This document shows, in pieces, positions 24,372 to 61,200 of a stretch of DNA of 64,000 nucleotides (its first letter is position 1; each line of letters begins with the position of its first letter). The notes under the pieces were generated by a model that ran no database searches, was not told the DNA's origin, and saw only the letters and a program-made list of their open reading frames with translations. A program made the position numbers and the translations under genes. Origin of the DNA: Thuidium tamariscinum (taxonomy: Eukaryota > Streptophyta > Bryopsida > Hypnales > Thuidiaceae); assembly GCA_947034885.2 (NCBI GenBank), contig OX344753.2:19840001-19904000 (forward strand), given 5' to 3'.

Positions 24372-24599
24372 CACTAGAAGAAAACCCTGTTAGAATCCCC
24401 GAAAACACGTCATGTAGTTCATGTTGAGTTCCTGTTGCAAAACGCAGTCAAAATGCAGTGAAAACACAAAAAAACGCAAAAAATACATTTTCTGCGTTTT
24501 TTTGTGTTTTCACTGCATTTTGACTGCGTTTTGCAACAAGAACTCAACATGAACTACATGACGTGTTTTCGGGGATTCTAACAGGGTTTTCTTCTAGTG
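24372..24599. mobile_element. CACTA-type MITE 3 (228 bp, duplication ATA), near-perfect palindrome
   Basis: The ends CACTAGAAGAAAACCCTG are perfectly inverted and flanked by ATA (24369-24371 and 24600-24602). The entire element is one hairpin centred near 24486, with very few mismatches between arms, so it is recent. It shares CACTAGAAGAAAAC with MITE 1. It lies in a hAT intron region. Such a hairpin could feed small-RNA production if transcribed (inference). Confidence 0.9.
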
Positions 24600-25571: not shown

Positions 25572-26198
25572 TGTCGTGATGTGGGCTATGTATTACGTAA
25601 ATTTAGGCATTTATGTTAATTCAAGGGAAATTCCAAGTATTGATGGGTTAGGGTTTTTTGGGTGGCTAGTCTCACCAGGAGGTTAGGTCTTTTTGGCGGC
25701 TAGTCTCACAAGGAGGTTAGGTCTTCAAAGGATATTTAAGAGGTGGCCTTTCCCCCTTGAATTCATCTTCATCATGGGATGTTAGATCATCTTTTTGGTT
25801 GGTCTCTTGTGTATTTGATTACTTTCCATTACTTGGAGTTGGAAATTGAGTGGTTGTGTTTGGGAGCCATCTTTTTGTTTGAAGTTGTATTTTGTTCTTT
25901 TTGTTGATATTGGTTTTATGCTGAGGGTGTCTTCTTCAAGCTTGAGAGTGTGGTAGGCAAACTCGAGGCGGCTTTGAGTGCTACCATTTCTGTTAGGTTT
26001 GAGAATCGAGGGTTGAGGTTTGAAATTGTGAGTTGGAGTTGTAGATCTTTTTGCTTAGACTTTATTCTTTTCGATAAGTGATAGGTTTAGCTTTTGGCTA
26101 TATAGTTTATTGTTTCTTTTCATTTCTTTTTACTTCATAGACATCTACTACAGCCAGAAGCCCCGTGCTTTTCCGGGTAGACTGCAATTCTTACGACA
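25572..26198 (+). repeat. 5' LTR
   Basis: 627 bp, TG...CA ended (TGTCGT/ACGACA), matching 48700-49326 almost exactly. The likely primer-binding region follows immediately (TTTGGTGAACCCGATGTG); I could not assign the tRNA. Confidence 0.92.
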
Positions 26199-28334: not shown

Positions 28335-28667
28335 GTTAATTCTTCTTACCCTGTCATTTTTGGGCAGCCTTACATTACAGCTACACAGATGGAGACAAAA
28401 GTTATGGACAATGGTTCAGCATACATATGCTAGGATTAGAAGTCAGGATGGCAAGCAGGTTGTACAATTTTTGACTGTCTGTGCGGATCATGAGAGAAAC
28501 CGTGAGAGTTTGAGGGCTCATCCTTTGCCAAAGGTGAGTAGAGAGTTTGGTGAAGGTTTTGATTACATGAGGGATTTTCATTCAATGCCTTTGTGAGGCG
28601 GGGTTGCAATGGTGTAAGGGGTATTGAATTCTCGCAAAACAAAAAAGAAGATCAACGTCGCTAGTAC
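28335..28667 (+). other. Internal LTR-element sequence before the nested transposon
   Basis: Remainder of the LTR-element interior, running up to the GTGAGCGGGGAGC terminus. No separate gene. Confidence 0.5.
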
Positions 28668-29329
28668 GTGAGCGGGGAGCGGGGAGCAGCAAGTTGTGAG
28701 CGGGGAGCATTGATTTGGGATGAAAAAAAATAAAGTTGCATGAAAATGGATGAAAGTGGATGGAAAAAATGGATGAAAGTAGATGAAAGTAGATGAAAGT
28801 AGATGGAAAAAATGGATGAAGTTGGATGCAAAAATAGAAGACAATGGACGAAAAGAACAGATGAAAAAGGTAAAAATCAAAATATATACCATTCAAAATT
28901 GTAACTTCACTACTACAGTGCCTATGACCGTGGAAGTAAATTGTCTTAAAACCAAAGAAGTTGACAGTTGAATTGAATTGCTTTTGTGTCATATAATAAT
29001 TCTCAAATAGACCCATTACCGTGGACAATTTTAGAATTGATGATTGTGTAGATTTTGTTTCAAAAAGAAATGAGAGAATTCGAATTCTAAACTAAAAAAT
29101 TAAAATCAAAACACAATGGTTAGAAGAGAATGAAGGTACAAACACATGATATCAATGATGGAATATAATAAACCATAATGCAAAATATAGGTATAAGGAA
29201 AATAACAAAAATTACACAGTAATCTCAATGTTGAAAGTGAAATGGAAGTAGTGGCCCTTTTAGTCTCACTACATATACATTGATGAGTACAGAAGGTACA
29301 AAAGTTGATACTATTTTGCAATAAAAAAT
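28668..29329. repeat. Left terminal region of the MULE
   Basis: Short GAGCGGGGAGC repeats start it, followed by tandem GATGAAAGTA units (about 28740-28820), then the subterminal ACCGTGGA motifs. Reverse-strand frames here are low-complexity shadows. Confidence 0.6.
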
Positions 29330-32300
29330 CTAACTTAGAGCTAAATGATTTAATATCCCACTAAGAAGGATCTTCTTGACTTCATTGAAACTGAAACTTG
29401 GGGCATGAATGAAGGCATCTATTGCTGACTCAAGGTTGCAAATGATTGTAAAAACAAAATAGAGATGCTTACAATTTGCCCATTGTCCTTGCTTGCCTAA
29501 TGACTTTGTAGCCATTTCTTTGAAGTATGGACATGAGTACTCTGGAAATGATGAAATAGTAAGCATATATTGTTCAATTTTTGGCTCTAATCCAGAGTCA
29601 AGGCAAACAATGCAACCAAATCCAGGGTGAGGAACTATTGTTACCCGACGAATGCATGCCTTCAATGTAATTGCAGATGCGCAATTGTTCGCATGTTTTA
29701 CTGTTGGCGCCTTTGGATTTCGACGAATGGTTTTCCCTGACCGAATTTTTGGATGCTCATCTGGTATATATGGAACAGGATAAGCAGAGACCAAATCTAA
29801 ACCTGCTTCTCCACCAAACAATCTTCGGGGTGAAATAACTTGACGTTGTGGAAGCTGAAAGCCAGTAGTTTCAAATGCCAAAATCTCTTGCTTTGACAAA
29901 TTGGTACCCATTTTGACAGGCCATATGGCAGGGACATTAGGTCTTGACAACACCCACTTCCGACTTGTACCCTTCACACAACGTTCAATGTCGTCATTGC
30001 AAAAGAAAAATTGCATTTGCTCATTTCGATTTTTCTTGTAATTGGTCATCATTCCTGTATACGTTGGTGCTGCTGTAGCAATGTTGCTTTGGACAATCTT
30101 TGCTGTACACTTCTTCTTCAAAATAACTTGGAGGGCAAAGCAAGCCTTTGCTGAGGATTTAGGAAGCCTTGCAATGTGCCACTGAAACTCATCACAGTTG
30201 CTCTCTTGAATTGCTGACACATGAGGAACTCTGTAAGTAAAACCTTCTCTTAAATTGTCCTCAGTTGTCATCGGATCCTCCATCTCAGTATTTGCAGTAG
30301 GAATAACATCTTCAATAATAGGATTCAAATTTTGAGTGCTTGTGGAAGCTCTCTTCGATCTCATTTGAATGCGTGGATGAGAAAAATTCACTTTGTCTGG
30401 GCGGTGTGAATCATATTCACAGCCCAATGGCATATCTGGCTTGCGTTTTTGTGATCCAAACATTTCTTCACCTTCAAGACGAGGCTCCCTATTGAGAAAT
30501 TCTTTCACTTCTGGAATGTTGGACATAGCTTCAGTGAGCACCTTTGGATTCCCCGATCGTTGCGCTGATCGTTGGGCAACTCAGAGTAACAATTCTTCCT
30601 TTCCAGGTCCTGTTCCAGCTTGATTGCCTTTAAGATATTGATAATACTTGACCATTTGCATAAAGGCTCTTACATAGTCGTCAACAGTGGCAATATATAA
30701 ATCGTTTCCTCGATTTCCAGATTGTTGAAGCCACTTGTTATGAACAGTTTCGGCTAAATTGCAAGAAGGCATTTCCGCGAGCTCAGATTCACTAAGATTC
30801 TGAAATAACAATGAAATCAAAAATGAAAATTTTGTTAGGAAAAAATATAAATGTATTGTAAGTATAACATTATTACTATTAATGTTGATAGTATAACTAG
30901 TAATTAAAGTAAGAAGGAAATTATAATATGAATCAAGAAAAGACAATAAACTTTCTATCATCCAGGACAAAGAAAACAAACCTCTTTTTTAGTTCATGTC
31001 ATTCTTTTATCAAAAAACTAGGAGAGGAGGTTAAGCTATGTCATTGTCGTTGATGAAGTGGCAAGACATGCTAAATTATATCTATTTTCAATGTTACAAA
31101 AATAAAATGATTGAAGATTCAAATCTCATGATCTCAAGGATTATTGGTCTCTAATTTTATATACATTTTTTGATTAATAATGCAATAACTAATAACCCAT
31201 ACTGTCTTTGATGATTTATATATAGTAATTATAAGAATTGTAGTGAAATCATGTATACTATACATACATTTTCAAATTGACATTGTCTAAATGATTAGTA
31301 ATGGTTATAAAATTAAATTTTGAATTCTTTGCTATAAATAGATTTAAACAAATAGATATTTGAAATAGAATTGATGAAGAATAGATACTTACAAGTTGTT
31401 GAAATCCTCCCCATTGGTGGTAACGAAAATGCCAAAACGATAGCCAAAGTTCCAATCGATGAAGTCCTTCTTCTGTCGTAGCACCAGATGATAACCACCA
31501 AGCTTTGATGGCAAGATATCGAGTTTCTGATTCTTCAGAGGAAATAGCATTCTTGTATTGTTTGTATAGCAAATGATGCTGATCTTGTAAGTTTGATCGA
31601 ATATCAGCTTTTGTATGCTTTTCCATTGATTGAGTCCAATGGAAAAGACAAGTCCTTTCTTGGTTTTCCATTGGAACATGAATGTCACGTGACCCATAGA
31701 TTGTCCTCACAGCATTCCAATTTGCTTGGGTACTATCAGCCATAAATCCCTTGAATTTAAGGTGAGATACACCATGTCTTGCAAGAACCGAATTTAAGTT
31801 TTTCCAAAATACAATTTGAGCAGCATAGTCTTCAGATTGCATATCATAGACGGCAATAGTCATAACACGACAATACATGGAGTCGTAGACATGACATGCC
31901 ATGGTAGTCCAACCTTTAACACGTTTAACATGATCAAACATTAACCAAGCATCCTGAAGGTCATCGCCGGGTTGCATTCGCTTGACCAAATCTACTCCAC
32001 TACCAAGTCCAACTTTCGACATTTTGAAGACAAAAACTTTATCCATATCCGATCCTTGACCTGGAAATTTATTCTCTTGAACAAATGCCCAAGAGCTTGT
32101 ACCCCTCAATTTTGTAATGCTATCCATAACTCCAAACCTCCTTAAGTATTTGAATGAAGTTACCTCATTTCGAATATTTGGAGAGCTGAAATATTTGCAC
32201 TTGTCAAGAACTGGAAGAAGTTCATCAATGTTGAGGGTCTTCACTGGAACTCCATCTGGACGTAGCAATAATTCTCCCACAAGTTCTTTTGTAGCCTCCA

Positions 32301-33603
32301 ACACAATTGAAGAGTTTGTCGCAACTGGTGTTCTCTCCATTTGTTCACCAATAAGAATACGGGTTCGCTCCTTGATGTCTCTGAGTTCACCATCTTTGAC
32401 AGGATGTTGATGAATGCCAAGATGTACAAATGCACGAGAGAAGTTCTGTTTTCCAAACACGTAATATACCCTTGCAGAACATCTAGCAATACATGATGGA
32501 GGTTGCTTGCATATTTTACAAACAAGTGTTGATCCTTGAGGATGTGCACTTCCTACTTCAAATAGTGATGGTGTGAACCCTTCCCATTCTAGTTCATTGA
32601 CATGCTTGGTTCGATGAATACGACTAAGAAACTCACAACCCGGATTGATGCACTGAAGATGTCCTACACATGAAGATGTACGGAATGATAATCCCATGGT
32701 ATTTGTTATATTTGTTGTAATAGTTTAAGACCAGACATGCCCATCATACCGCTTATCCATCCCACTCATTTGCTTAGCTTGAGATAGAGCAGTGGAGGTA
32801 GTAGGTGGTGGAAACTCAAAAATGACATCTCCATTGAAAGTTGGAGGTAATACGCTCACTCTGTGAATAGTAATAGTGTCATAATCAATTTTTTTCAAGA
32901 CATTTCTACATCCCTTTAGTGTACGCAATTCTCTTAAACAATCAATGACAGATGTAATAGATTCTTTGCTACTAGAGGGATTGACAAATAATGGCTCATA
33001 AGAACTCAGCAAAGCACTCGAACAGGGCAAAGTACTTGAGCTGGGTAAAGTACTCGAGCAGGGTAAAGTACTCGAGCAGGGTAAAGTACTAGAATTAGTC
33101 AAAATACTAGAGCTTGGCAATGTACTAGAACTTGGCAAAGTAGACCTATGACATCGAATCTTAGAGCTTTGCAGTTGCTTGGGAGAATTGTCATCAGAAT
33201 CATCACTTAGAATGGTGACATCATTCAAACCAGGCTCTAATTTAACTCGTGTTGTTAAAGGTGTTTCACGAGAGGACGTAGAGGACTAACGAGGTGTAAA
33301 AACACTCGTAGAAGTTACCATGATGGATTCACGCAATCCATACACCCTAAATTGACCAGGCTTCAAATGCCACAATCTACCAACACCATCTGAAACAGGG
33401 ACTTGACCAATTGTGTGAGTAAGGTCTCCACTATGATCATCGAATACCTCTTCATCAATATAAAGTGAGTCCTCGTTCAACTGAAACCTAAGACTCAATC
33501 GAAATGCAGAAACCACAACAAATCCATCTTTGCCTACTAGAAACGTTATTGGAATCCCTTCACCATTCGCCCTTACAATAGCCATCTCTGTAAAGTCTAC
33601 CAT
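29330..33603 (-). pseudogene. MULE transposase gene (GCM/FAR1-like finger, DDE, SWIM), two exons
   Basis: Exon 1 is 33603-31393 (ends CTT|GTAAGT) and exon 2 is 30799-29330 (after TTTCAG), about 1,227 codons with three in-frame stops (TAG, TAA, TGA). In order: an N-terminal domain; a low-complexity tract of STLPSSS/STLPCSS repeats (~33000-33150); a zinc-finger-like CVGHLQCINPGCEF...H module; the DDE core (WLMFDHVKRVKGWTTMACH, TIAVYDMQSED, FKGFMADSTQANWNAV); LFHWTQSMEKHTK and WLSFWHFRYHQWGG; then in exon 2 a long tail ending in a SWIM-like finger (YSCPYF...ANCKHLYFVF). WRKY-GCM1-like finger + MULE DDE + SWIM is the known architecture of Mutator/FAR1 transposases. It would cut and rejoin the element ends. 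This copy is decayed. Confidence 0.82.
33000..33160 (-). repeat. In-frame minisatellite in the transposase gene
   Basis: About seven to nine units of a 21-24-bp repeat encode STLP(S/C)SS. Start and end are approximate (about 33000-33160). It lies between the N-terminal domain and the zinc-finger module and is probably a flexible linker. Confidence 0.8.
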
Positions 33604-34828
33604 TGCTTAAAGATTGAAGTCTCATAAAGATACCATTCTAATTTACGTCCATACTGCACTCAGAAGAAATGAATTGAAAAGAAAGAGATTGTGCTGGAAA
33701 CAAATATGTAGTTAGCAAATATGATGATGAAGTAGTTTACAACGGCTTTAGCAATAATTAGGAAATGGTTTGAAAATTTTTCAATGATGAATTCTGACAA
33801 CAGTTCAAGAAGTGACATTAATTTTGATCCCTTAAAAGAACCTCATTAGAAAAGAAAAGCAACTAAAAACACCTAATGGTGACATACTGACATAGTAGAC
33901 AATAAAGCATAGTACCAAATTTATTAATAATAGTATAAACTTGAATAAATTAATTAGATTAATAACAATCTAATTATAAAAATAAACATGTCTCATGTTA
34001 ATTAATTTAATAATGAGTATGAATTATGAATTAAAAAATAAATGAAATATAGTATATGTCAAGATTTTAGTTTGAAGTGGCCTACATTAGAAGTAGCCGT
34101 CATTTGTATAAAATAGGAACAAAGAATCAAAGGAAATACAAACATTTAAGTAGTGGGAGCGCCAAATCCACCTGCAGGTTTACGTTATAGTAGAAGATTG
34201 ATAGAGTATTTATATAAGAAATAACATTTAGAATAACAGATCCATCAGATTTCAAAATTTGAATAAACTTCAGACTTGTACAATTGTCATTTACCGTTGC
34301 CAGAGAGTTTAAGTTTTTCTTATTAGTACATCTTGCTTACCATCTTTATTAAAGTTGTAGGACATCATTGTAATACTTCTTTGGTCTTGAAAGCGTTTTG
34401 AATTTGTGTTACAGTAGCTATGCATCCAGTAGGTGATTTTTACTCTTGTTGTAAAAGAAGATTGTAGATTTGTGAGAGATGAGAATAATGCACCTTTGTC
34501 AATTTTTGAAGGCTTTGCATAGCTAAAAACATTATTTAAATTAGATTCAATGTTTATTAGAACTATGTCTACAGCTAGTAGGGTTGAATGATAGATAATT
34601 TGGAGGTGATAGAGACGATAGTATTGTGATGCTTGTTTCGGAATGTATGTGTGGTAGAACAGATGCTTGAAGAAATCAAGATCCTTAAGTCTCAGGTTGC
34701 AAGTAGGTTGATAAAAAAGAAGAGAAAAAGACGCAAACTATATTTGTGGCAAGACATATTTTTGATCTTTCCATTTAAAGTCAGTATGGAGCGGAAAGTC
34801 GAAAATTTAGCAACCGGATTTGTTTAGG
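33604..34828. promoter_or_regulatory. Head-to-head intergenic region of the MULE (left part)
   Basis: AT-rich DNA between the divergent transposase and ParB/methyltransferase-like genes. No strong TATA box was assigned. A 64-codon forward frame at 34633 (lysine-rich, RLIKKKRKRRK) has no partner evidence. The original spacer is interrupted by the CCGGA-rich insertion that follows. Confidence 0.4.
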
Positions 34829-35057
34829 GAACGGGTAAGATCCAGAAGTAGTACCAGATAATGTTGTAGAGACCGGTGGCAGAATAATTCCGGTTTATTA
34901 CGACGGAATACCGGAACGGAAAAATTCCGGACCCTACAGAACGGATTCTATCCGGATTCAGTCCCAGAACGGAACGGATGATTTCCGGACTTGGACCGAT
35001 CGGATGAGAACGGGAACGGATGATCAGGAACGGAATACCGGATCCATTTCTGGAAAG

Positions 35058-35066
35058 TATATAAGG
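35058..35066 (+). promoter_or_regulatory. TATA box of the CCGGA-rich element
   Basis: TATATAAGG lies about 350 bp upstream of the first ORF, with a GC-rich leader between; canonical for a plant RNA polymerase II promoter. Confidence 0.6.
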
Positions 35067-35414
35067 CCTGACATTTTCAGTTGGCCCATTTGCTCTCAGG
35101 CGCTTCGTTGTGTGTTTTTCAACCCTCAACGTTTTCCGCCTTTTCTGTGAGTTGGTTTTCCGCGCGTGTTTGGTGGCGCAATTTTTTGTGACGCGGCTGT
35201 CAGTATTAGCAGCGGGTGTTTTGTCAGAGCGGGCAGTTGTCAGCGGCGCGGGTTTCAGACTGTGCGCTGAGACGCTGGTGTGTGGAGAGGAGTGTGTGTG
35301 TATGTGCAGGTGGTTATTACGGGCAGATTACTTTTGTATTTGTGATTGTGAGTGTGTGTGAGGAACGGGACGTGCGGCTAGGAGAGGAGTGAGGTAGTTT
35401 TCCGGATAGTTGCC

Positions 35415-36200
35415 ATGCCGCAGCTACGCCGGAAGAGAACCGAGTCCACTACACCCCCACCCTCAGGGATAAAGCTGAAGAAAGTAGTTCCGCTCATCCC
35501 TTCCACAGAGCCGGAGAAAAGCAACTTGATGGCGGACTTAACCGCAATGGGGTGTCTAGGGTTAGCAGAGATACCCTGGGGTTTCAAGGAGGAGCGGATG
35601 GTGAAGGAGCTGAAGGGCAAGGTGTCGAATCAGTTCGACAACACGGCGCGGGGAATGCCGCACAAATGGACGGAGGCGCACTGGAGGGCCGTATACGGGT
35701 TCAAACACCAAGGGCACGAACCGGCCGGGAGGAAGGTAGACTTCCTCCAAAACAAGTTTAGTGGCACCCCTCACCCGAAGGACGGATACCGGATCATGGA
35801 CTGCAACGAAGACAGGCATAGGCGCCTGTTGAAGTTTCTGCTTCCGGTCCTTCATCCGGAGAAACCAACCCGGATCACGATCGGCCTGGCCAACACCATT
35901 TTCGGTGCGCTGATCGGAGACCGGAAAGTGGACTGGGGCCGGATCATACAGGACCTGATCACCCGGTTACTGAAGAACCTCGGAGGGAGTAGGGCAACTC
36001 CGATATCCCCCTACCTCTTCCACCTCTACCACCATCTACAGCTCCTTTCGGATACGGAAGAGAAGACGTGGCACACCCAGAAGATAGTCTTGATGTACGG
36101 GGAGACGTCAACGGATGATGAGGAGAGCTCCGAGTCCGAGACAGAGCGGGAGGACTCGGATAAGGGAGAGGAACCGGAAGTTCCGCTCGTGAAGCGGTAG
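35415..36200 (+). CDS. Hypothetical protein of the CCGGA-rich element, ORF 1 (261 aa)
   Basis: The N-terminus is basic and proline-rich (MPQLRRKRTE), the central domain globular (WTEAHWRAVYGF, RITIGLANTIFGALIGDRKVDW, ATPISPYLFHLYHHLQLL), and the tail acidic (STDDEESSESETEREDSDKGEEPE). The central part resembles putative plant-transposon/Gag-like proteins seen in many TE-derived predictions, but I cannot name a family. The start at 35415 is the first ATG after the TATA-led leader. It is probably element-encoded rather than a host gene. Confidence 0.55.
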   Translation: MPQLRRKRTESTTPPPSGIKLKKVVPLIPSTEPEKSNLMADLTAMGCLGLAEIPWGFKEERMVKELKGKVSNQFDNTARGMPHKWTEAHWRAVYGFKHQGHEPAGRKVDFLQNKFSGTPHPKDGYRIMDCNEDRHRRLLKFLLPVLHPEKPTRITIGLANTIFGALIGDRKVDWGRIIQDLITRLLKNLGGSRATPISPYLFHLYHHLQLLSDTEEKTWHTQKIVLMYGETSTDDEESSESETEREDSDKGEEPEVPLVKR

Positions 36201-36410
36201 AAGACCACACCGCCGAACACGAGGGGATCTCCTCCGGTCCGACACAATCCGGGAACGGAAGGCAGAGCGGGACCATCCGAACCGGGTCAGGCCGAACCAG
36301 CAGCAGAGGAAACGGATCCCAGTGATCCGTTCCTGCAACTGACGGAAATCCTGTGCAACATCCGAGCGGATTGGGAGGTCAAGCGGATCGTCCTGGAGAA
36401 CATCGCGGGG

Positions 36411-37040
36411 ATGGTCAATGGCAAACCGGATCATACTCTTCCGACCGTGGTAGGTAATTGCATCGCCTCGCCTGCGGATCTCGCCAAGTTGGAGGAGGAA
36501 AACCGGAAACTTCAGGAGGAAGTTGACGGTTTGAAGGCGGAGCTCCTTGTTCTCAGGGACAACGAGGCCGCTACCAAGGAGATGGCGGCAGAGACCGTCA
36601 AATTGGCGGAGCACGTGAAGACAACATTCGGGGAACTCGGATCGGCTGTCATCCGGGCTCAACTGTTTGACGAAGAAGTGCACAAGGAGAAGAAACTATC
36701 CGGAAGCCGGATAGTCCGGATTCTGTCCGACTTCTCCGAAAAGGTGGAGACGACTTTGGTGAAGGTTCGGGAGGCGACCGAACGGATGGAAGACTGTAGC
36801 CGGAGACTGACGGAAATTCCGGTCAGACTCTCCGATCTGTCTCTACCGGATATTTCCGAAGGGTTGCCTCAGAGACTAGGGAAGGACAGGACGCCGCAAT
36901 CCAAGAAGTCAGGGCGAGCGTCAACGGGCAACCGGGAGGCGGCAATTCAGTTGTCGGAGTCTCCTGCGAGTCCGGTTACTGGAGCTCCGGTTGCAACAGA
37001 CGGAGAACGGAATCGGAACCTCACCGAGGTCTTCGAGTAG
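36411..37040 (+). CDS. Hypothetical coiled-coil protein of the CCGGA-rich element, ORF 2 (209 aa)
   Basis: The segment around residues 25-60 is a strong heptad coiled coil (LAKLEEENRKLQEEVDGLKA). A second helical stretch follows (VRILSDFSEKVETTLVKVREATERMEDC), then a Ser/Pro-rich tail. It lies 210 bp after ORF 1 and could be a downstream exon of the same transcript. No enzymatic motif seen. Function unknown. Confidence 0.5.
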   Translation: MVNGKPDHTLPTVVGNCIASPADLAKLEEENRKLQEEVDGLKAELLVLRDNEAATKEMAAETVKLAEHVKTTFGELGSAVIRAQLFDEEVHKEKKLSGSRIVRILSDFSEKVETTLVKVREATERMEDCSRRLTEIPVRLSDLSLPDISEGLPQRLGKDRTPQSKKSGRASTGNREAAIQLSESPASPVTGAPVATDGERNRNLTEVFE

Positions 37041-38351
37041 ATCAGTAGGGCGGAAAGACCGACTATAGGATCTAGGGTAGCAGAGCCGGATACGTAGGTA
37101 TTAGGACTTTCCTGTTTTTGTAATTTTTAACTTAGGAACGGATCAGGAGGAAATCCGGTCCGGTTTAGGAACTTGGAGCGGGTTGGAATCCGTTCCGGTT
37201 CAGAAGTAGGTAGGAACGGATCCACCGAGCGTTAATCGCGGCGGACTTGTATGGCGCTTTTTGCTTTTTGCCCATTATTTAAGTCAGTCCCCTCGCGGTG
37301 GATTGGGAGTCTTTTCCTTTGCATTATCTTTGTGTATTCTATTCCCTCTTGCTTTGCGCGTGTATCTCCCGGGTTTGGCAGGGCGGCGTGACGCGGAGTT
37401 AGGAAGGCGCAAGTGGTTTTGCAGGCGACGTTCTCCCTTTGGTGTTTATTTTCCGCGTCTGAGTATATGAGAACGGGTAGAGAAGAGTTGGGAGTGTAAT
37501 TCTAGTGCCTCAGCGCTTCTAGGACTTAAGATTCCGGGTGAGAAAGCCGTTGTTAGGCTAGACGAGAGGGAGGGATTCCTTAATCGTGTTAGAGCTCCTG
37601 GGTGGGAAACCCAGTTGAATGTCCGATCTCCTGTGAGGTCTCACCGTCTTTGTGGCAAACGGAAGAGTTCCGGTTGACGTTGGAACGGACGGATACACTT
37701 GTAGCCACCTGGCTCCCCAGGAACGGAAAGTAGTGTCAAAGTCGTTGTAGTATGAGAAGATCGTACGGGGGATCTCTGTGTGACCTACAGTCCGAATCTT
37801 TGTCTGGATTGTTGTGAGGGATCAAACCAGATCTGAAGTATTTTTAGAATTAACAGGTAGAAAGTGGGTCTTCAGCCACTATAAGTCACGGAAGGAGCGG
37901 TGGGCCTACCGCTCACAAAATCAAGCGGCGACCCCTCTGATGGTAAAACAAAGGCAAAACTAAACCGGATTGAGGAACGGATGTGGACGGATCATCCGGA
38001 ACGGATTGATCCAGAGAGGAAACCAGGAGCGGAACTCGTTAGGAAGCGGATCCGTTGCAGTCTGACGGAACGGATAAAATCCGGGAAACCGGAAAAGTGA
38101 AGGAACGGATCCATTCCGGACCAGATTGCTAGAATATCAGTTTTGAACGGGATAACGGGTTGTTATCTCGGGTTGTTTGTGTATTTCCGGTTCTAGATCT
38201 AGAACCGGATTATAGAGTTTTGGGAGCTGTCCTATCTTAATCGCTTAACTAAGCCAGATACTTCACAGAATCTCGCGGGTTCGATCTTTAGAGTCACTTA
38301 GTTATACTCTAGAGTGATTTTTGTGAGTATAGTAGGGAATTTACTTACCCT

Positions 38352-38660
38352 GTGTTGCGACAATATTACACAACTCTGAAGGCCAAATCAAGAGCTAAGA
38401 TGAAAGGGGCCAAAATTCTAAGTAGAGGAAAGCATAGCTATGGTGAGACGTCTAAAGCACTTGATTTTGGTGACGAAGAAGTGGCCGACATAGTTGATGA
38501 CGGTATTTCATGTCTTGATAAGATTATTGAAGAACCAATATCTATGGTTGAAAGAGATGAGGACAACATACATGGCGAAGAAGACGATCAGAGTAAGGAC
38601 GAGAGCGAGGACGAGAGTGACGAAGATAGCGAAGAACCTGCCCAAAGTAGACAAGATTTG
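38352..38660 (+). other. Possible orphan exon with acidic tail
   Basis: An open frame (TLKAKSRAKMKGAKILSRGK... then an Asp/Glu-rich run) ends at a strong donor, TTG|GTAAGTATA. The upstream boundary coincides with the edge of the CCGGA-rich insertion, so this may be the right half of an exon cut by it. The MULE gene has its own start exon further right (39378), so the relation between them is unclear. Confidence 0.4.
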
Positions 38661-39377
38661 GTAAGTATATCATATTATTTGATCATTTGAAGTTGATGTT
38701 TTAAATAAGATGTAGTGAGAATTTGTTTAGAAGAACACTTGTTAAGTACTTATTTACTAGTTCATTACATAACAAAGCCAGAAGATGCTTGAAAGTATAG
38801 AAGAATAGATACCAAAATGATTAGGTTGTTTGTTGAATTAGTATGAATTTTTTTTTTGGTAGAGCTGCATTTGACAGGGAAGACCTTCTCGTGTATTTTA
38901 AGAAGACGATTCCAACGGTATATGGCACATAAAAACTGGATGGTTATTGAATGTTTTATGGCCTAAAAACGATTTCAGCAGATTGGAGCCTGGTCTGAAA
39001 TCTTCAGAATCGGAAGACTTTCAGGCAAATCTTGCCCGCGGACTTTTTTGTGAACTTTGACGATTTTTGTAAAATCAGTAGTGAGTCTAAAAATTTTGAA
39101 AAAATTTGGAGTTAACTGTAAGGTTATAATCTACGCATGAAAAAAATTTCAAACCAAATTACTCAAAATTACATTTGCTATTCAAAATAAAGCGCTGACC
39201 GAAATCTACCAATTTTGTACTCTTTTTTTTTTTTTTTTTTCCCCCCCCCCTTCCCGAGGCCAGCATTGCAAACCAGTTCCATCGTGCGTCGAAGTTGCTG
39301 AGGGTTTGGCGCAGAGGAAGATCGCTCGTTGACGAGGCATCTTCTTTGCGTACGATTTGTGGCGATTGTTGCTGCAG
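38661..39377. promoter_or_regulatory. Right part of the MULE spacer: promoter region of the ParB/methyltransferase-like gene
   Basis: AT-rich sequence, then a poly-T/poly-C run (39223-39250) and a GC-richer leader with two copies of the motif TCGTTGACGAGG flanking the start exon region (further variants at 39560-39890). No TATA box assigned. Confidence 0.4.
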
Positions 39378-41459
39378 ATGGAAGAGGCAGAATTTGCAGA
39401 GCGTTCGGCGGTGGCTTCGCGTGGAACGCAAGAAGACACTCAGCCAGACATCGAGGTTTGTTTTCTCTTCTAATTTTTTCTCTGTCATTTCTAGTTCGAA
39501 GTTTTGTGTATTTTCAGGGGGGGCAGTAATTGCGGGACGTGCAGTTTTGAGGAGTCCTCGTTGACGAGGATACCCAAAACGGCGGCTACCCTAATCAACA
39601 TTGGTTTGTTTACAGTCCTTTCGGGAAATCTTCGTTGACAAAAAAACCTAAAATTATACATTCTTTGTTTAGATCGTTAGGTTGAATTACACACGACTAT
39701 TTCGAGGAGTCCTCGTTGACAAGGACACTCAAAACAACTTCGAATTTAATTGAAAAATGCTAAGATTGTTGGGCTGTTCTTAACAAAAAAAATTTGAAGG
39801 ACAATATTTGCACATTCTTTGGATCAATGCCAATGTTTTGGTTTGAACTATACTCAACTCATATAGTCCTTGTTGACGAGGCTGTCTATAACTTGTACTA
39901 CTTTAGGCTGAATTTTGAGAAGAGATGCCATTTCATGATTTCTTTGTAGCTTCTCTAGTTTTCTAATAGAATGCGTTTTTAGCTGATTTTAGTTGATTTT
40001 AGCCGTTTACTTCAATTCAAACGAAATTGGATATGCATTGTGGAAATTTTTTACAACTTTGAGATTATTTAGGAATTCAGTTGTCAATGTTGTTGTATTT
40101 GTGTTGTCTTATTTGTATACTACGATGCTGTAAACAAGAATCAAGAATGAGTTCATTTTTCTTTCATCTTCATTTATAAATAATGGAGGACTTATGTCAA
40201 GTTTTCTTCAATGATTTCAACTAATCAGATGAATGAAGAAGAAGAAACTGAAATCACATATGTCGAGGAGGAAGAAGGTGAGAACAACAATGATGGTGAG
40301 AGAGTTGTTATAGGAGAAACGGGAAGAGTTGCACCTCCAATTGTTGAGGTAAATGAAATTTCTACATGTCCTTTCCATTACTTTGTGTATGTACAATTAT
40401 TCAAAACAACAAGTTTTAAATGTAAACCACTCTCTTTACAATCTTATCTTAAACTTCTCTAATGCCATTTTATCTATCATTTTTTTGAAGGTTGCATCTA
40501 TTGATCTTGAAGATGATGAACCAAGATGTGAATGTCCAGCTGATGTAACAAGTGTATTGGAGAGTGAGCAACTCCACCGCAAACAGCTTAAAGTGGACAC
40601 TACAGGACTCATCAATACATTGCGTATCCAACCAGTTTCTAGATCACGCCTTGAGATACCTCTTTGTCGAATGATTGTTATGGATGAGGTTCGACCGGTT
40701 GGTGAAATGGATGTTCAGAGATTGGAGAGTGAGTTTATGACTGGCTATCGAGATGGTGATTGGGTTCTATACATATCACCATACAACAATTTTGAAAAAA
40801 CTATGGACGTGACTGAAGAAGAAATTGCAAAGTGGAGTCCTCATTGGCAACATGTGAATGAGGAGTTTGAGAAAGAGTTGATGGCTGATGATGACCTTGC
40901 CCAATTGAGAGGCAAGATGTTTTATGTGTGGGATGGAAATCATCGTGTTTCGGCATGGATGCGACACATCACCAACTATCATCCTACAGAACTTGATTGG
41001 CACTGGCGAGTCCATTGCATTATATTGGATCCAAGAGGTCAAATGGCAAACTTGCTAAATGCAATGAGTGATATTAACTGGTACGTTTTTTATTTTATTT
41101 AAATTTATTTGTGAAGAATCTAAATATGAATTCATTGCCATAAATTTGATTTCATTCTCATGCAAATGCATTGTATAATGTGTAGGTCTACTGAGCATGA
41201 TCATGTGAAGAGCACAATTCCAGCTCGATTGCGGCGAATTCGAAATTTTGGAGTTTTACCTCTTGCTGATTTCAAGGACCTTATATCTCCTGAAGAGTAC
41301 CAATATTGTGAGAAGGTGAAGGCAATGAGACCGAGTTGGTTTTCTTTGATAGTCAATGTCTTCATCTCCTTTTTGTATAAGGTGCAATCACATTTCCAAT
41401 TTGTTTTTCTTGCAACATTTATATGTCATTTCAGTAATTTCTTTGACATTCTTTTGATA

Positions 41460-42900
41460 TTGTAATATCTTTGACAATCCTTTAGGATTGTAATTTCTGT
41501 GATTTTTTTTGACATTGTGATTTCAGTGATGTTTTTGACATTGTAATTTCTGAAATTTCTTTTGACATTATAAGTTTCAGTTTGTGGGTACTTTGTAGCA
41601 AGTTATAGAAAGTCTACATTAAAATTAACTTTGAAGTCCTTCATTGTTGTGATTTCTTGGACATTGTGATTTCTGAAATTTAGGTAATTCCCTCAACATT
41701 ATCATTTGTATGATGTCCAACATTGTAAATTTTGAAATTTTTGAAATTTCCTCAACATTGTCATTTCTGTGATTTCTTTGACATTGTGATTTCTAAAATT
41801 TTGGTAATTCCATTGATATTGTAATTTCTGTGATTTCTGTGACATTGTAATTTCTCAAATTTCCTTTGACATTGTAAGTTTTAGTTTATAGGAATTTATA
41901 AAAAGCCTACTCTAAAATAAACTTTGAAGTCGTTCATCTCTATGATTTCTTTGACATTGTGATTTCTGAAATTTCTGTAGTTCCCTTGATAGTGTGATTT
42001 CTGAAATTTCTGTAGTTCCCTTGATAGTGTGATTTCTGAAATTTCTGTAGTTCCCTTGATAGTGTGATTTCTGAAATTTCTCTAATTCCCTTCATAGAGT
42101 GATTTCTGAAATTTTTGTAGTTTTCTTGACAATGTGATTTCTGAAATTGTTGTAGTTCCTTGATAGTGTGATTTCTGAAATTTCTCTACTTCCCTTGATA
42201 GTGTGATTTCTGAAATTTTAGTAGTTCCCTTGATAGAGTGATTTCTGAAATTTTTATAGTTTTCTTGACAATGTGATTTCTGAAATTGTTGTAGTTCCTT
42301 GATAGTGTGAATTCTGAAATTTCTATAGTTTCTTTAATAGTGTGAATTCTGAAATTTCTATAGTTTCTTTAATAGTGTGATTTCTGAAATTTCTGTAGTT
42401 CCCTTCATAGTGTGATTTCTAAAATTTCTGTAGTTCCCTTGATAGAGTGATTTCTGAAATTGTTGTAGTTCCTTGATAGTGTGATTTCTGAAATTTCTAT
42501 AGTTCCCTTAATAGTGTGATTTCTGAAATTTCTGTAGTTCCCTTGATAGTGTGATTTCTGAAATTGTTGTAGTTCCCTTGATAGAGTGATTTCTGAAATT
42601 TATGTAGTTCTCTTCACAATGTGATTTTTGAAATTTTTGTAGTTCCTTTGACATTGTAAGTTTTAGTTTATAGAAAGTCTATTTTATGATAAATTTTGAA
42701 GTCCTCTATTTATATGATTTCTTTGACATTGTGATTTCTGAAATCTTTTGTAATTCTTGTGACATTGTAATTTCTGTAGTGTCTTTGACATTGTAATTTC
42801 TGAAATTTTTGTTATTCTCTGAACATTGTCAATTCTATGATTTCTTTCACATTGTAATTCCTGAAATTTTCTTTAACATTGTAATTTCTATAATTTTCAA
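41460..42900 (+). repeat. 35-bp minisatellite in intron 4
   Basis: Tandem units close to GTGATTTCTGAAATTTCTGT followed by AGTTCCCTTGATAGT, period about 35 bp, fill most of the intron, with older diverged units at both ends. Interspersed blocks read GTAAGTTTTAGTTT... then TAGAAAGTCTA. Confidence 0.9.
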
Positions 42901-45085
42901 TTGTAGCGGGAGATTGCATTGGCCGCCGATGAAGCAGCTCGAGAATACACGATGCGGACACCACTCCAAGAGAAGACTGCTCCAGGCATTTGGGAAGCAA
43001 TGAAAAATGCCTCAGACAAGTTTGTCAAGGCCGTTCATGCCAAAGACTTTGACAAATACCTAGCGGTGGCAAATCCAAAGAACGGAAATGATTTTCTCAA
43101 AGAGGTATGAGTTCATTTGTATTTCATTTAAACTTGTAATCTCTGAATTTATCTATACATTGCATCATTTCAATCTAATATAAATGTTTTTATGTGCTTA
43201 GATTGATAGACACTTCAGTGAATATCCAAATCCTGAAATGACGATTGAAAAGCTTCAAAAAATTGCCACCGCTAACATTGAAGCAAAACACAAGGCACGG
43301 TGGTTAAGATGGTGGAATGCATCCTTGACGGTTCGACAATCTTATCGCTTTCCAGGGTCCAAGGATAAAGACCTCTTTTGGGATTCTTGGATCAATAAAG
43401 CATCTTTTTGGGCTGAGGTATTGTATTGTGACCGCAAATCATTTCTTTCTTGTACTTATTATGATTTCATTTTATTGTATTTTTAACATTCTTCATTTCA
43501 TTTTAACAGATGAAGGAGGCGGTTGTTAAGATGGTTACAAACATTTGCAAAGATGAAAACATTGTCGTAGATTGGACCATACAAGGTGTTTGAAAGCCCT
43601 CTGATTATATGGAGAGTTGGCGCATTCTGCTTTGGGACAAAGCATTTATCTCGTTCTTTGGAAACAAAGATCAGAAACTCTATACAAAGAAGTCTGTATT
43701 TAAAGAGTTCCCTGGAGCTGAGAGTGCAGTGAGACGTATTGTATACAGGTACTATTATGCTATTGCACTTATCTACTTGCTTTAATATTTTATTATGTAG
43801 TTTCTATTGTTTCTTATTTTTTGGTTCCCATTTGTTACCTTTACTTCTAAAAGTTTATGGAAATGATTTGTTTGTTCTTATTGTTTTCATTCATGAATTA
43901 CTTTCCAATCATGACATTTGTCTCCTTGACTTCAGGTACTTCATGCGGGTTCTACTTCCCAAAAATGCAATTTCAGCAGAAGCTGTACCACCCTTTTTTC
44001 TTTCTTGGTTGCAAAAAGACTCTGATCTTTGTATGTTCACATTTGAGCAATTGAAGAAGTTCAAGGCTACACATTTGGAAGCAGGAGGGTGATACCTTGA
44101 TTGTCATCGGAATTACACCCCTGACTCAGAGGTTGTAGAGATGACAACTTTTGATGGTGGACAGCTTGCTATTCTTGACCTTGACAATGCAGAAGAAGTT
44201 AATCAACCACAAGAGAAGGCACCAAAGAAAAAGCGGCTCACAAAGAAGGAGAAGGAAGAGATGGAGAGGGTGGCCAAAGAGAAGGCGGAGAAAGAGAAGG
44301 CAGAGAAAGAAGAAGCCGAAAGACAGAAGTCTCAAGCAAATGAACTTGTAGCCGTGCCTTCACAGAGTCATGAGACTACCCCCATGTGAGACCAAGGCCA
44401 TGATGATGGCCTTGCACCTGCTGCCCCAGATTCTTCTTTATCGAATGTTGTTCATGCCACTGGTAATCGAATTCGAAAGAAGAAACGATTCATGTTCCCT
44501 TCAGCCAGCTCTTCAATGATAGAGCCTAAAGACTCTCTTCATGTCTTTGTAGAGTGTACTTCTCTCATCACTCTCTTGAATAGTTTACAAGAGTCCACTG
44601 GCCCTGATCCTCGATGGATACGGTTGCATGATACTATAGCTAAGGTATTGTATTCTCAACTTAATTCCAACATTTCATCTTTTTATGGCATTGCTTTGAA
44701 GGTTTTAATTCTAACTTTACATGTATGAAATGTGCAGATTAGTGCTACTCGCAATCGTACTGTCACATCCGACTTTTGCAAAGAATACAAGCATACAGGA
44801 CTTGATTTGATCATTGCAGACATTCCAGAGAATCTACCTGTTCCAGGTCTTTCAACTTCAATTCCAGAGTGGAACGCGCGCAAAGAGAATTACGTTGAGA
44901 CTCTCTTTGAGATGGCTGATATGTATTTGCATGATGACGGTGCCCTCCTACTCATACATTGTGATGACCGAAGATTGCTAAAAGAAGTTGATGAGTTGGC
45001 CGACCAGTATGACATGAAGTTGGCCAAAGATTGGTGGAGAATCAATGAGCTACATCTTGCATCTGCACGGGATCCATCATTAACG

Positions 45086-46005
45086 GTAAATGAAAAAGTT
45101 TATGTAACTTCTTTGACATTGTAATTTCTGAAATTTTCTGTAATTCCCTTGACATTGTAATTTATGTGATTTCTGAAATTTTTGTAATTCCCCAAGTGAC
45201 ATTGTAATTTATACTATTTCTTTGACATTGTACATTTTAGTTTGTAGGAATTTATAGAAAGTCTATTGTACCCTTAACTTTGAAGTCCTTCTTTTTTGTG
45301 ATTTCTTTGACATTGTGATTTCTGAAATTTTTGTAATTTCCTTAACATTGTAATATCTGCAATTTCTTGGACATTGTAATTTCTGAAATTTCCTTTTGAC
45401 ATTGTAAGTTTTAGTTTGTGAGTAGTTTGTAGGAAGTTATAGAAAGTCTATCCTAAAATAAACTTTGAAGTCCTTCGTTTTTGTGATTTCTTTGACATTG
45501 TGATTTCTAAAATTTTTGTAATTTCCTTAACATTGTAATATTTGCAATTTCTTGGACATTGTAATTTCTGAAATTTCCTTTTGACATTGTAAGTTTTAGT
45601 TTGTGAGTAGTTTGTAGGAAGTTATAGAAAGTCTATCCTAAAATAAACTTTGAAGTCCTTTGTTTTGATGATTTATTTGATATTGTGATTTCTGAAATTT
45701 TTGTAATTTCCTTAACATTGTAATATCTGCGATTTCCTTGACATTGTAATTTCTGAAATTTTCTTTGACATTGTAAGTTTTAGTTTGTGAGTAGTTTGTA
45801 GAAAGTTATAGAAAGTCTATCCTAAAATAAACTTTGAAGTCCTTTGTTTTAATGATTTATTTGACATTGTGATTTTTGAAATTTTTGTAGTTCCCTTGAC
45901 ATTGTGATTTCTGAAATTTCTGTAGCTCTCTTGATATTGTAATTTCTGAGATACAGTTCTTTCTAATATTCAACTTTTCAATGTTTGCAATCTGTTCGAT
46001 TTTAG
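45086..46005 (+). repeat. Related minisatellite in intron 9 with ~180-bp higher-order units
   Basis: The same TTGACATTGTGATTTCTGAA unit occurs here, organised in at least three ~180-bp higher-order repeats (landmark GTAAGTTTTAGTTTGTGAG at about 45405, 45585 and 45765). Confidence 0.9.
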
Positions 46006-46889
46006 ATTCAATTGTTTATTCGGCGGGAGATTCCTTCACGGTTTTCATTCCAAGAAAATCGTGATTCTTCTTATGATGGTGAGCCTTTAGAGAAAAATGA
46101 TGCTCTCTTCAATCTTACAGATATTGAAAGCCTTTCTATGAATGAGAAAATTTCATGGAGAGGTCCACGTGAGAAGAACTTACCCTTTATGCGAGATCTC
46201 ATCCTACAATTTTGCAAGCCTGGAGACATTGTCCTTGATTGCAAAGCTGCAACAGGTATTTTTTTCTTCTACAATTTTAAGTTCTATTCATCATTCTTTG
46301 GAGCTGATTTTTCATAATTTATTCATATATTTTTTGTTTTCCAACAGGTTCATCCATCAAGGCTTGTTTGGAGACTGGACGGCACATCTTAGCATTAGAA
46401 GATGATCCTCTCATTTTCAAGGCTATGATTGCCCCGTTTGCCCCTATTGCAGCCTCTATTTCTACAATCAAGGATAGAGCCACTACACCACCGCTTGATC
46501 AGCCACCTACAAAGAAGCCAAAGAGGAATCGATTCATCTCTTGTGCGTAAGTTGTGATTCATTTGTTATGTCACCATTTTTCATTTTATAAGAATATTTG
46601 AATTACATTGTATTTTACTAACCTTTTTTTCTTGTCTTGCAGAGACACGGTAGTAGAGCAAGTACAAGATGCAAATGAGCAGAGTCCGCCTTTCAATTTC
46701 ATTCTTCCGGTTTATGCAGAGAGGATTGCTCAAGCATATGTTGATGTTCCATCTCCAATAGCGAATCGACAAAAGCTTCGATATGATCCAAAGGTAAAGG
46801 AGTTCTTGGATATAGAGGCAAATCAAAGAGAGGAATTTGAAATTGAAGGTTCAACCTCTAGTGACTGTAACTCTAGTGGTGGTCTTTGA

Positions 46890-47355
46890 GTGGTTTTCAT
46901 TTTTCAGTGTATTTCACTATTGTGGCTCTAAATTGCCCTCCATTTTTATGGCATTTGCGTTATCATATATATATTATACAGGCATTTGATTGTGTGTTCT
47001 AAATGTTGAATGCTATATCCAAGTGACCCACATATTTAAACTTATTGTATCTTCTTATCTTGGTGAGTATTCAATTTCTCATTGTGTGAATTTAAACAAC
47101 AAAAGATTTGTTTCTAAATGATTCACAATTGCTTATAATCTTTAATGGTTGCAATATTATGCCATAACTATATATGTCTTTTTTTGAGTGGTATTGTAGT
47201 ATTATAGTTTTTCATTCAATTTCTTTAAGCTACTTGGTCTTTCCATTATAAGTATTAGATGTTTTTTTGCTCCGTAGGAGACTATTTCAGGGTTCTTCCC
47301 TAAAACTATTCACTGTGCAATGAACCAGTGACTGCTGGTCTGAATTTTTTGAAGG

Positions 47356-47392
<37 letters not shown>

Positions 47393-48007
47393 AAAAGTTA
47401 TGAAACAAAAAATTGATTTTTTTAAATTAATAATTAATTAAAAATATAGTAAAATCTAGCATGATAATATCTCAACAATGTTAGCCTTCTAAATGCCCCA
47501 AAAAACATCTAATGTCTTAAATGACAAAAATCCATGGTCATAGACTTCCTTCTATTTTTATTAAAACTATAAACCATCATTTTATTAGGTATCCAAATTT
47601 CCTTAACAATCCACGGCTTTACATGCCCGTTTTAATATAAATTAAATTTTTATGAAAATTATACGGTAATAGGGTCTCTTAAATTTCATAAATTAAACTT
47701 TAATAAATCATTTTTGGTTCTCTTATCTCTATTCTTTGCTCTTGTAGAGAACTTTAAATATTTGAAATTACATGATCATAATGCTTATATCATATAGCTA
47801 TAGATCTAAACTTCCAAAATTCCATGGCTTTAGATTAGAATTGGATTGAAAAAAATTCAAATTTAATATTTTTGGAACAAACTATTTACACGGTTTTAGG
47901 TACCCTTTTCCACGGTAATAGGATTAGGTAGGTCTTTTTTCCTAAAATCCCTGCTCCATGCTCACTTTTTCCTGCTCCATGCTCCCCGCTCCCCGCTCCC
48001 TGCTCAC
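46890..48007. repeat. Right terminal region of the MULE
   Basis: AT-rich 3' flank of the methyltransferase-like gene with a pure A34 run (47356-47389) and repeated ACGGTAATAGG/CCACGG motifs. It ends in GCTCC-type repeats that mirror the left end. No gene. Confidence 0.6.
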
Positions 48008-48699
48008 ATACCAGCATTTCTCAAAAGAAGATGGAGTTGTGAATTTGATTGGTATACCTAGGGTAGAACCTACTTTATACAACGATACAAACAAACAGGA
48101 GAATGATGAGGCGCTGTATGTTCAAGGTGATGAGATTGAATTGAAGAAAGAAGGTGAACTTGAAGTTGATGGTTGTGAATTAAAGATGTTTGAAGGATCA
48201 GATTTGGATGATACAATAAAGTTGGATGTTTTGTTGGATACAAGTTTTGGAGGTCAGAAGAAGACAGCACAAGTGCATTCAAAGGAGATTTATAATGAGG
48301 TGGAAGGATTCGTTGATAGAAACAAAGTAAAAGATGTTGTGGAAATGAAGACTATTGTGAAGAGGGTTGGATCAACTGTATTGACTCAACGAAGAGGTTG
48401 TGGAGAAGTTGAGAAAGATCTAGTACAACCACACTTTAGGGATCCAGAAATGATTGAATATGAATTCACAAACATGATAGTAGGCGGTACAGAGTTGAAG
48501 ATCCCAATTGCAGGTAAACGAGTTAAGTTGTTTCGCCAGCGTGGTGAAGACCTTAGATTCAAAGACTTTGGTGGAGTTGAAGCTGAAGACAATGAGGATG
48601 CGGAGGATGACCAGAGGCTAGAAGATTGATTAAGGCCCACATCATTTTTAGATCTAAATCAGCACATGCCGGAGGATGTGTAGATTTAGACGGGGTGGA
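48008..48699 (+). other. Distal interior of the LTR element
   Basis: An acidic open frame (to 48629) contains DLVQPHFRDPEMIEYEF and GKRVKLFRQRGEDLRFKDFGG. It is not a polymerase or integrase and I do not recognise it. A purine-rich tract (GACGGGGTGGA) directly precedes the 3' LTR, as expected of a polypurine tract. Confidence 0.5.
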
Positions 48700-49326
48700 T
48701 GTCGTGATGTGGGCCGTCTATTACGTAAATTTAGGCATTTATGTTAATTCAAGGGAAATTCCAAGTATTGATGGGTTAGGGTTTTTTGGGTGGCTAGTCT
48801 CACCAGGAGGTTAGGTCTTTTTGGCCGCTAGTCTCACAAGGAGGTTAGGTCTTCAAAGGATATTTAAGAGGTGGCCTTTCCCCCTTGAATTCATCTTCAT
48901 CATGGGATGTTAGATCATCTTTTTGGTTGGTCTCTTGTGTATTTGATTACTTTCCATTACTTGGAGTTGGAAATTGAGTGGTTGTGTTTGGGAGCCATCT
49001 TTTTGTTTGAAGTTGTATTTTGTTCTTTTTGTTGATATTGGTTTTATGCTGAGGGTGTCTTCTTCAAGCTTGAGAGTGTGGTAGGCAAACTCGAGGCGGC
49101 TTTGAGTGCTACCATTTCTGTTAGGTTTGAGAATCGAGGGTTGAGGTTTGAAATTGTGAGTTGGAGTTGTAGATCTTTTTGTTTAGACTTTATTCTTTTC
49201 GATAAGTGATAGGTTTAGCTTTTGGCTATATAGTTTATTGTTTCTTTTCATTTCTTTTTACTTCATAGACATCTACTACAGCCAGAAGCCCCGTGCTTTT
49301 CCGGGTAGACTACAATTCTTACGACA
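48700..49326 (+). repeat. 3' LTR
   Basis: 627 bp, same length and ends as the 5' LTR. About six substitutions separate the two by eye. CCGC follows at 49327-49330, completing the target duplication. Confidence 0.92.
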
Positions 49327-59219: not shown

Positions 59220-59228
59220 TATATAAGG
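59220..59228 (+). promoter_or_regulatory. TATA box in left palindrome arm
   Basis: GGGTATATAAGGGCC: a strong plant-type TATA context, firing into the loop. Confidence 0.5.
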
Positions 59229-60129: not shown

Positions 60130-60385
60130 TTCTTGGTAATTTCCAACGAAATTGGTTGTCAATTAGTTTGTCTTTTTAATAAAGGATTGCAACCAAATCT
60201 TTTATAATCCAATTAATTTTAATTCTTCTAAATTCCTAAAGAAATTGGTTGTCAATTTGTCTTTTTTAATTTGGCTTATTAGGATTAATTTGAATAAAGA
60301 ATTGCAACCAAATCTTTTATAATCCGATTAATTTTAATTTTCTTAAAATTCCTAAAGAAATTGGTTGTCAATTTGCTGTTTTCCT
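60130..60385. repeat. ~110-bp tandem duplication
   Basis: AAATTGGTTGTCAATTTG recurs at about 60150, 60243 and 60359, each followed by ATTGCAACCAAATC (first two) and TTAATTTTAATT. Confidence 0.8.
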
Positions 60386-60925: not shown

Positions 60926-61200
60926 CTCCCCGGCTCCCTCTCTGGATCCCCCGGCTCCCTCTGGACTCCCCTGGCTCCCTTTGGACTCCCCCGGCTCCCT
61001 CTGGCTCCTCCGGCTCCCTCTGCTGGCTCCCCCACCCTGCTGGGACACGTGGCGGCTGGTGGGTGGACAAACCCCTTCCCCCTGCCTCGTCAGCCCCCCG
61101 CCACGTGGCGCGGCGCTATTGGTGGGTGGGGGGGGTGTCTCCCGCTGGTGCTGGATTGTGTCCCTTCGGTGCTGGACTGCTCCTCGGGGCTGGACTGCTC
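60926..61200. repeat. GC-rich CCCGGCTCCCTCTGGACT minisatellite, array 2
   Basis: Units near CCCCCGGCTCCCTCTGGACT repeat about eight times, then decay into GCTGGACTG repeats. Related to array 1 at 57480. Confidence 0.85.

Follow-up and report, generated by a model that had tools for sequence, protein, structure and literature searches.

What kind of element occupies positions 28653 to 48022 of a stretch of Thuidium tamariscinum DNA, and what would its second gene, a long and intron-rich one, do for it? The stretch (the window, all 64,000 nucleotides analysed, from contig OX344753.2) had been predicted from its letters to contain a Mutator-like transposon of about 19 kb that carries a ParB-plus-methyltransferase-like gene beside its transposase. 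It is well supported that the element is a DNA transposon in which a transposase-like gene and a second gene are transcribed away from each other. On balance we think it probable that it represents a broken copy of a large cut-and-paste, Mutator-like transposon that inserted in a young long terminal repeat (LTR) retrotransposon, and that its second gene encodes an accessory protein of the ParB-plus-methyltransferase kind which binds the element's own repeats. The element and the site that it entered comprise the following features.

28653..48022: whole transposon, 19,370 bp, delimited by flush 10-bp direct repeats on both sides and by the open frame of the empty site
28643..28652, forward strand: target-site duplication, left copy, AAAAGAAGAT
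48023..48032, forward strand: target-site duplication, right copy, AAAAGAAGAT
28653..28721, forward strand: left end, imperfect terminal inverted repeat with GTGAGC/GGGAGC units every ~7 bp
47947..48022, reverse strand: right end, imperfect terminal inverted repeat with GTGAGC/GGGAGC units; outermost bases, read from the outside in, GAGAAATGC
25572..26198, forward strand: 5' LTR of the retrotransposon entered by the element, 99.04% identical to 48700-49326 (6 mismatches in 627 positions)
48700..49326, forward strand: 3' LTR of the same retrotransposon

The ends reported earlier (28668 and 48007) each stand exactly 15 bp inside a copy of AAAAGAAGAT, a 10-bp direct repeat without mismatch, and because this symmetric duplication flanks positions 28653 and 48022 we set the limits of the element there; the predicted size stands and each boundary moves outwards by 15 bp. 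Shuffling the flanks 100,000 times produced a symmetric 10-mer common to both sides on 4 occasions, and among 400,000 randomly paired positions in the window 62 had one. The GTGAGC at which the element had been said to start was considered as its true end and rejected, there being no duplication at that point. Inverted ends with common subterminal GTGAGC/GGGAGC motifs had also been predicted, and these were borne out: a 13-mer of the ends has seven matches at up to two mismatches where 0.20 were expected, comparison of the outermost 80 bp on each side shows 47 identical positions (26 among the first 35), and the alignment of the inverted ends scores 61, the maximum among 500 shuffles being 46. 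The outermost 15 bp of the two ends agree at just 7 positions, so the inverted repeat is imperfect there.

The transposon sits inside a young LTR retrotransposon. When the flanks are rejoined with one copy of the duplication, a 228-codon open frame crosses the junction and extends 30 codons to its left; long frames extend 16 codons to the left when the flanks are joined at the earlier ends and 11 codons when both copies of the duplication are retained. This open frame across the empty site is moderate support for ends at 28653 and 48022. The retrotransposon itself (25572-49326) has a short internal region and a 4-bp CCGC repeat at its ends; frames at 26245, 27663 and 47946 were scanned and gave a single match, to DUF4100 and below the cut-off, with no polymerase in these three.

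The second gene runs rightward from 40211 to 46889, with 3,264 bp of coding sequence (1,087 codons), and one reading frame passes through all of its exons except for three premature TGA codons. It was correctly predicted to be a multi-exon, rightward gene; we count 11 exons rather than 12, with splice sites picked by eye, so that the GT...AG boundaries of all 10 introns are there by construction. The exons have a GC content of 0.43 and the introns of 0.27. Its parts, with the two long introns, are these.

40211..40348, forward strand: exon 1, acidic N-terminus
40491..41080, forward strand: exon 2, ParB-like part with WDGNHRVSAW (GxxR P-motif)
41186..41315, forward strand: exon 3
41316..42906, forward strand: intron 3, 1,591 bp, mostly a tandem array of GACATTGTGATTTCTGAAATTTCTG-type units in a single orientation
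42907..43104, forward strand: exon 4
43202..43417, forward strand: exon 5
43510..43748, forward strand: exon 6, one premature TGA
43936..44644, forward strand: exon 7, lysine/glutamate-rich linker, two premature TGA
44738..45085, forward strand: exon 8, methyltransferase half, DIPE at the motif IV position instead of DPPY
45086..46005, forward strand: intron 8, 920 bp, repeat family of intron 3, 185-bp higher-order unit
46006..46255, forward strand: exon 9, methyltransferase motif X and the first part of motif I (VLDCKAAT)
46348..46546, forward strand: exon 10, remainder of motif I, then GRHILALEDD
46643..46889, forward strand: exon 11, with terminal stop

Introns 3 and 8 consist mostly of one tandem-repeat family in one orientation. 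The unit CTGAAATT occurs 22 times in intron 3, 8 times in intron 8 and is absent on that strand from the rest of the window, and the two arrays have common 8-mers that are almost absent from the rest of the element. These arrays offer a concrete candidate target sequence for the second protein. They may also be ordinary repeat growth, and it is somewhat more probable than not that they are neutral, with no protein target: tandem arrays are common in the window, 40 of 60 overlapping array rows lying outside introns 3 and 8, and the motifs are A+T-rich. What neutral growth explains less readily is that a single family of units, always in one orientation, has filled two of the gene's introns that lie apart, the remaining eight measuring 92-187 bp.

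On sequence comparison the second protein is, in its C-terminal half, a homologue of the beta-class N6/N4 DNA methyltransferases. PF01555 matched at 27.1 bits, the cut-off being 26.7, and the match takes in the C-terminal half of that profile (positions 101-212 of 221); the PADLOC MTase_II model matched residues 59-270 of the 281-residue half (E 3.1e-9), and PHROG methyltransferases matched residues 208-270 with E down to 1.6e-7. PDB sequences gave weak matches (best E 0.024). The beta-class layout that had been predicted is thus upheld, for membership of the class goes with a PF01555 score above the curated cut-off and with motif IV standing before motifs X and I, and both were found. A tblastn search with the methyltransferase half drew matches from 543 plasmid records and 496 phage records, all at less than 60% identity and none across more than 80% of the query, and from the annotation among the matches listed (20 and 25) we take them to be generic methyltransferases; this and the other searches of phages, plasmids, viral contigs and GTDB genomes covered collections other than plant genomes, and those of viral contigs and GTDB genomes could detect close relatives only. 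A 481-residue DNA methyltransferase on a Chlorohelix plasmid (L024:727-2172) is 24% identical to the methyltransferase half, at an E of just 0.9, and that plasmid has three PF02195 matches, none of them within the methyltransferase gene.

Homology does not extend to the catalytic residues, DPPY and FxGxG, in place of which we found DIPE and KAATG, the placement of motif IV being dependent on the alignment. At motif I the protein reads DCKAATG, against DNTMGSG, DPFMGSG and DPFAGSG in three relatives from bacteria or phages; at motif IV it reads DIPE, and the relatives DLPY, DPPY and GLPK, the frame of the third beginning there. The degenerate motifs suggest that the protein is probably inactive as a classical methyltransferase. 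With the codons found here, tyrosine to glutamate requires two base changes and phenylalanine to lysine three, which makes recent decay of this copy an unlikely cause. That the protein is a functional enzyme, methylating N6-adenine or N4-cytosine to mark the DNA of its own element, is in our judgement unlikely. In favour of such an enzyme, the homology covers most of the catalytic domain (by the PADLOC model; PF01555 covers the C-terminal half of its profile), and epigenetic self-marking is what has been proposed for algal proteins of this kind (PMC12477816). Motif IV is also placed less firmly than motif I. One of the three aligned relatives (L003) likewise lacks D-x-P-Y at that point, and the phmmer piece in which DLIIADIPEN lies opposite DAIITDPPYN of DpnA has a score of -2.4 bits.

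The transposase-like gene reads leftward, away from the second gene, in two exons of 1,226 codons in all, with three premature stops.

31393..33603, reverse strand: transposase-like gene, exon 1, C..H motif, two premature stops
29330..30799, reverse strand: transposase-like gene, exon 2, SWIM-like CPYF...CKH near its end, one premature stop, stop codon included

Its product reads FMADSTQANWNAV...CLFHW and, at the C-terminus, CPYF...WANCKH. Transposases of Mutator-like elements (MULEs) have D...D...C..H catalytic residues and a SWIM zinc finger, and the motif layout here resembles that of such a transposase. MULE target-site duplications measure 8-11 bp, usually 9-10. Membership of the MULEs is judged by terminal inverted repeats, present here in imperfect form; by the length of the duplication, here a perfect and symmetric 10 bp; and by a match to the profile PF10551 or the related Transposase_mut, neither of which appeared in Pfam at E up to 10. 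We consider the element probably Mutator-like from its 10-bp duplication and the arrangement of its transposase motifs, and since no MULE profile matched we call it MULE-like and do not assign it as a member. An intron that would bridge the two upstream stops was rejected by eye, because the phases fit poorly.

Part of the evidence runs counter to our interpretation, both for the transposase-like protein and for the ParB-like part of the second protein. For the transposase-like protein, Pfam at E up to 10 gave no transposase family and just weak, unrelated names, NCBIfam gave no match, and the one bacterial IS256-type protein compared by phmmer did not match; PDB sequences reached chance level (best E 0.036). 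No relative of the transposase exon was found in viral contigs or GTDB genomes, where 5 and 18 stretches fitted the peptide pattern and none was confirmed. Of what had been predicted, the leftward gene, its C..H motif and its SWIM-like C-terminus hold; identity as a MULE transposase was given by no profile. For the second protein, Pfam returned no ParB family, PF02195 included, and PHROG 1033, a ParB-like family, reached only E 0.13. Our own ParB profile, made from nine plasmid segments of which one lies below the Pfam cut-off, scored -2.1 bits, a value equalled or exceeded by 199 of 1,000 shuffles (697 of which gave a score); its sole alignment puts GNHR on Box II at a score not above those of the shuffles. 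Single-sequence AlphaFold models of the ParB exon and of the transposase exon had predicted local distance difference test (pLDDT) values of 34 and 32 and were unusable.

The ParB-like part was unmatched in NCBIfam, PADLOC and PDB, its tblastn search found no match in phages or plasmids, the first 594 residues of the second protein had no relative in viral contigs, and exact back-translation of DGNHRV(S/T)AW found 0 stretches in viral contigs. The predicted GNHRVSAW motif is present in exon 2, within WDGNHRVSAW, and includes GxxR, which in the ParB-CTPase fold is the P-motif of Box II (PMC12704722), there set in a strand-helix context; ParB identity came from none of the profiles that were tried. 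The N-terminal part may be described as ParB-like at the level of this motif, a relationship that is unproven.

The silence of the profiles lends some weight to a transposase from another superfamily, undescribed or divergent, whose target duplications would likewise measure 10 bp; the profiles for MULE, IS256 and other transposases all failed to match, the carrier known to have this cargo is Sola1, and red algae are reported to have giant EnSpm elements that bear accessory genes (PMC12477816). We give this a minor share of our confidence, on a par with that given to an active methyltransferase. The arrangement of D...C..H followed by a SWIM-like finger fits the MULE pattern. Sola elements make target duplications of 4 bp and EnSpm elements of 2-3 bp, short lengths that the 10-bp duplication does not resemble.

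MULEs also capture genes, and the second gene might be a host gene taken up in the manner of a Pack-MULE, with no part in transposition. A single copy was seen here, and Pack-MULEs are mentioned in PMC12477816. Against capture stand an intron-rich gene of 1,087 codons, with its start and stop, on the strand opposite to the transposase, and the occurrence of a gene of this type and length in another DNA transposon (PMC12477816); we regard capture as quite improbable. That the stretch from 28.7 to 48.0 kb is a chance stack of unrelated insertions, as the GC-rich nested block between the genes might suggest, is very improbable given the matching inverted ends, the one flush 10-bp duplication and the open frame across the rejoined retrotransposon site.

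The element is a broken copy, with both genes interrupted by six premature stops in 2,313 codons, three in each. It can have resided at this site for no longer than the two LTRs have been diverging, and 1.3-2.2 new stops are therefore predicted since then; the probability of six or more is 0.002-0.02. The excess of stops suggests that some decay preceded this jump and that the element moved with proteins from another copy, which is likely but not proven. At 13 LTR mismatches, about the upper 95% bound, the prediction rises to 2.8-4.7 stops and the probability to 0.06-0.33, which weakens the argument from stop counts.

These observations can be assembled into a mechanism. A large cut-and-paste, Mutator-like DNA transposon would have jumped into a young LTR retrotransposon, this copy probably needing the proteins of another in order to move. 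We infer that the second gene encodes a transposon accessory protein of the algal ParB-plus-methyltransferase kind, whose clamp-like N-terminal part would load it onto DNA and whose methyltransferase-like half, being without the DPPY and FxGxG residues, more likely binds DNA, or S-adenosylmethionine (SAM), than methylates. Its likeliest job would be to bind the element's own repeats, the end units, the intron arrays or both, and so to aid transposition or prevent silencing, as VANC does for VANDAL. A bolder proposal, and a doubtful one, is that a plant MULE-like lineage has made of a phage-type ParB/methyltransferase fusion a non-catalytic, VANC-like factor that loads on the end units and on the intronic arrays of the gene encoding it, and spreads as a clamp that keeps the element unsilenced or ready for transposition. 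If true, Mutator-like elements would possess two anti-silencing systems of independent origin. The degenerate catalytic motifs allow a sharp distinction here, that of binding without methylation. Should the pair of genes prove to be linked in other plant genomes, plants would join brown, red and green algae as known bearers of the cargo, with at least two unrelated transposase families, and such a distribution would argue that it has been repeatedly useful to transposons.

Other features lie within and around the element; searches of Rfam at the gathering threshold and a tRNA scan were both empty. A GC-rich block stands between the two genes.

34800..38300 (boundaries approximate): GC-rich block between the two genes, defined by a shift in GC and CpG

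The block has a CpG observed/expected ratio of 1.04, that of both coding sequences being 0.52-0.53; it holds 23 of the 36 AACGGA/TCCGTT sites in the window, and two open frames that share a reading frame at 35382-37037, 272 and 279 codons long, had no Pfam match above the cut-off. It is probably a separate, nested mobile element. An open frame at 38313-38690 has an acidic stretch and ends at a good donor, GTAAGT; it is possibly an upstream exon of some gene. At 57660-63523 there is a long inverted repeat with arms of ~1.66 kb that are 99% complementary across 1,563 bp and ends that read TGAGCCCTCGAGATGGCACT; no flanking duplication of at least 5 bp was found around it. Two protein-kinase genes (Pfam PK_Tyr_Ser-Thr), at 3-1520 and 16298-17884, belong to a duplication ~16.3 kb apart whose repeat pieces are 77-95% identical. 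Two hairpin elements at 7622-7843 and 24372-24599 have CACTA-type ends with, by eye, ATA on both sides, and are probable CACTA miniature inverted-repeat transposable elements (MITEs). These hairpins, the kinase genes and the retrotransposon content have a plant-like look.

The closest known system is Sola1-1_Ec32 of Ectocarpus, described in PMC12477816 as a 21.5-kb element with a ParB and methyltransferase gene of 1,104 amino acids on the strand opposite to the transposase; its authors propose that the protein binds the transposon's own sequence and marks it epigenetically. The two are alike in being large DNA transposons (19.4 kb here) with an accessory gene opposite the transposase, and in having proteins of similar length (1,087 codons here) that are ParB-like, here at the level of a motif, with an N4/N6 methyltransferase-like part. 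The carrier there has a Sola1 transposase and belongs to a brown alga, whereas here we have a 10-bp duplication, a MULE-like layout, a plant and degenerate catalytic motifs, the proteins having been compared by description. The same paper states that giant elements frequently hold nested insertions and pseudogenized transposases, and cites Iyer 2011 and Petroll 2025 for similar proteins in green and red algal transposons; these embody the same idea of cargo, known to us through that citing passage (PMC12477816). The original prediction named the cargo as one not known from any described plant MULE, and no MULE or land-plant case of a ParB and methyltransferase cargo appears among the matches listed in the literature searched, most subscription papers lying outside it. 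The cargo type is nevertheless in print for algal DNA transposons (PMC12477816) and is therefore less novel than the original prediction held; what is new is a MULE-like carrier in a plant, the degenerate catalytic motifs and one tandem-repeat family filling two introns.

The domain pair has counterparts in other mobile elements. Phages often fuse a ParB fold with PF01555, and the ParB-CTPase plus N6_N4 methyltransferase fusions of phages and prophages have the GxxR P-motif too (PMC12704722); the protein considered here differs in being split among exons, 1,087 codons long and carried by a eukaryotic transposon, and its ParB-like part escapes detection by profiles. DIRS retrotransposons with Dam-like methyltransferases, and charophyte and dinoflagellate retrotransposons with DNA methyltransferases (DNMTs), are likewise eukaryotic transposable elements that have recruited a methyltransferase, although they are retrotransposons and the methyltransferases are of other classes (PMC5890265).

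VANDAL21 of Arabidopsis is itself a MULE-type element. Anti-silencing systems of the VANC type have a protein that binds tandem motifs in the non-coding DNA of its element and lowers DNA methylation. The targets of the anti-silencing protein VANC21 are short motifs in tandem repeats of the same orientation (PMC5735166, PMC10398659); the VANC21 and VANB21 genes have them in introns, VANA21 in its upstream region (PMC5735166). The transposon described here resembles it in having a second protein and tandem motifs, in one orientation, in introns of the element's own genes (PMC5735166, PMC10398659); the motif sequence differs, and the likeness, drawn here from sequence alone, is one of arrangement only.

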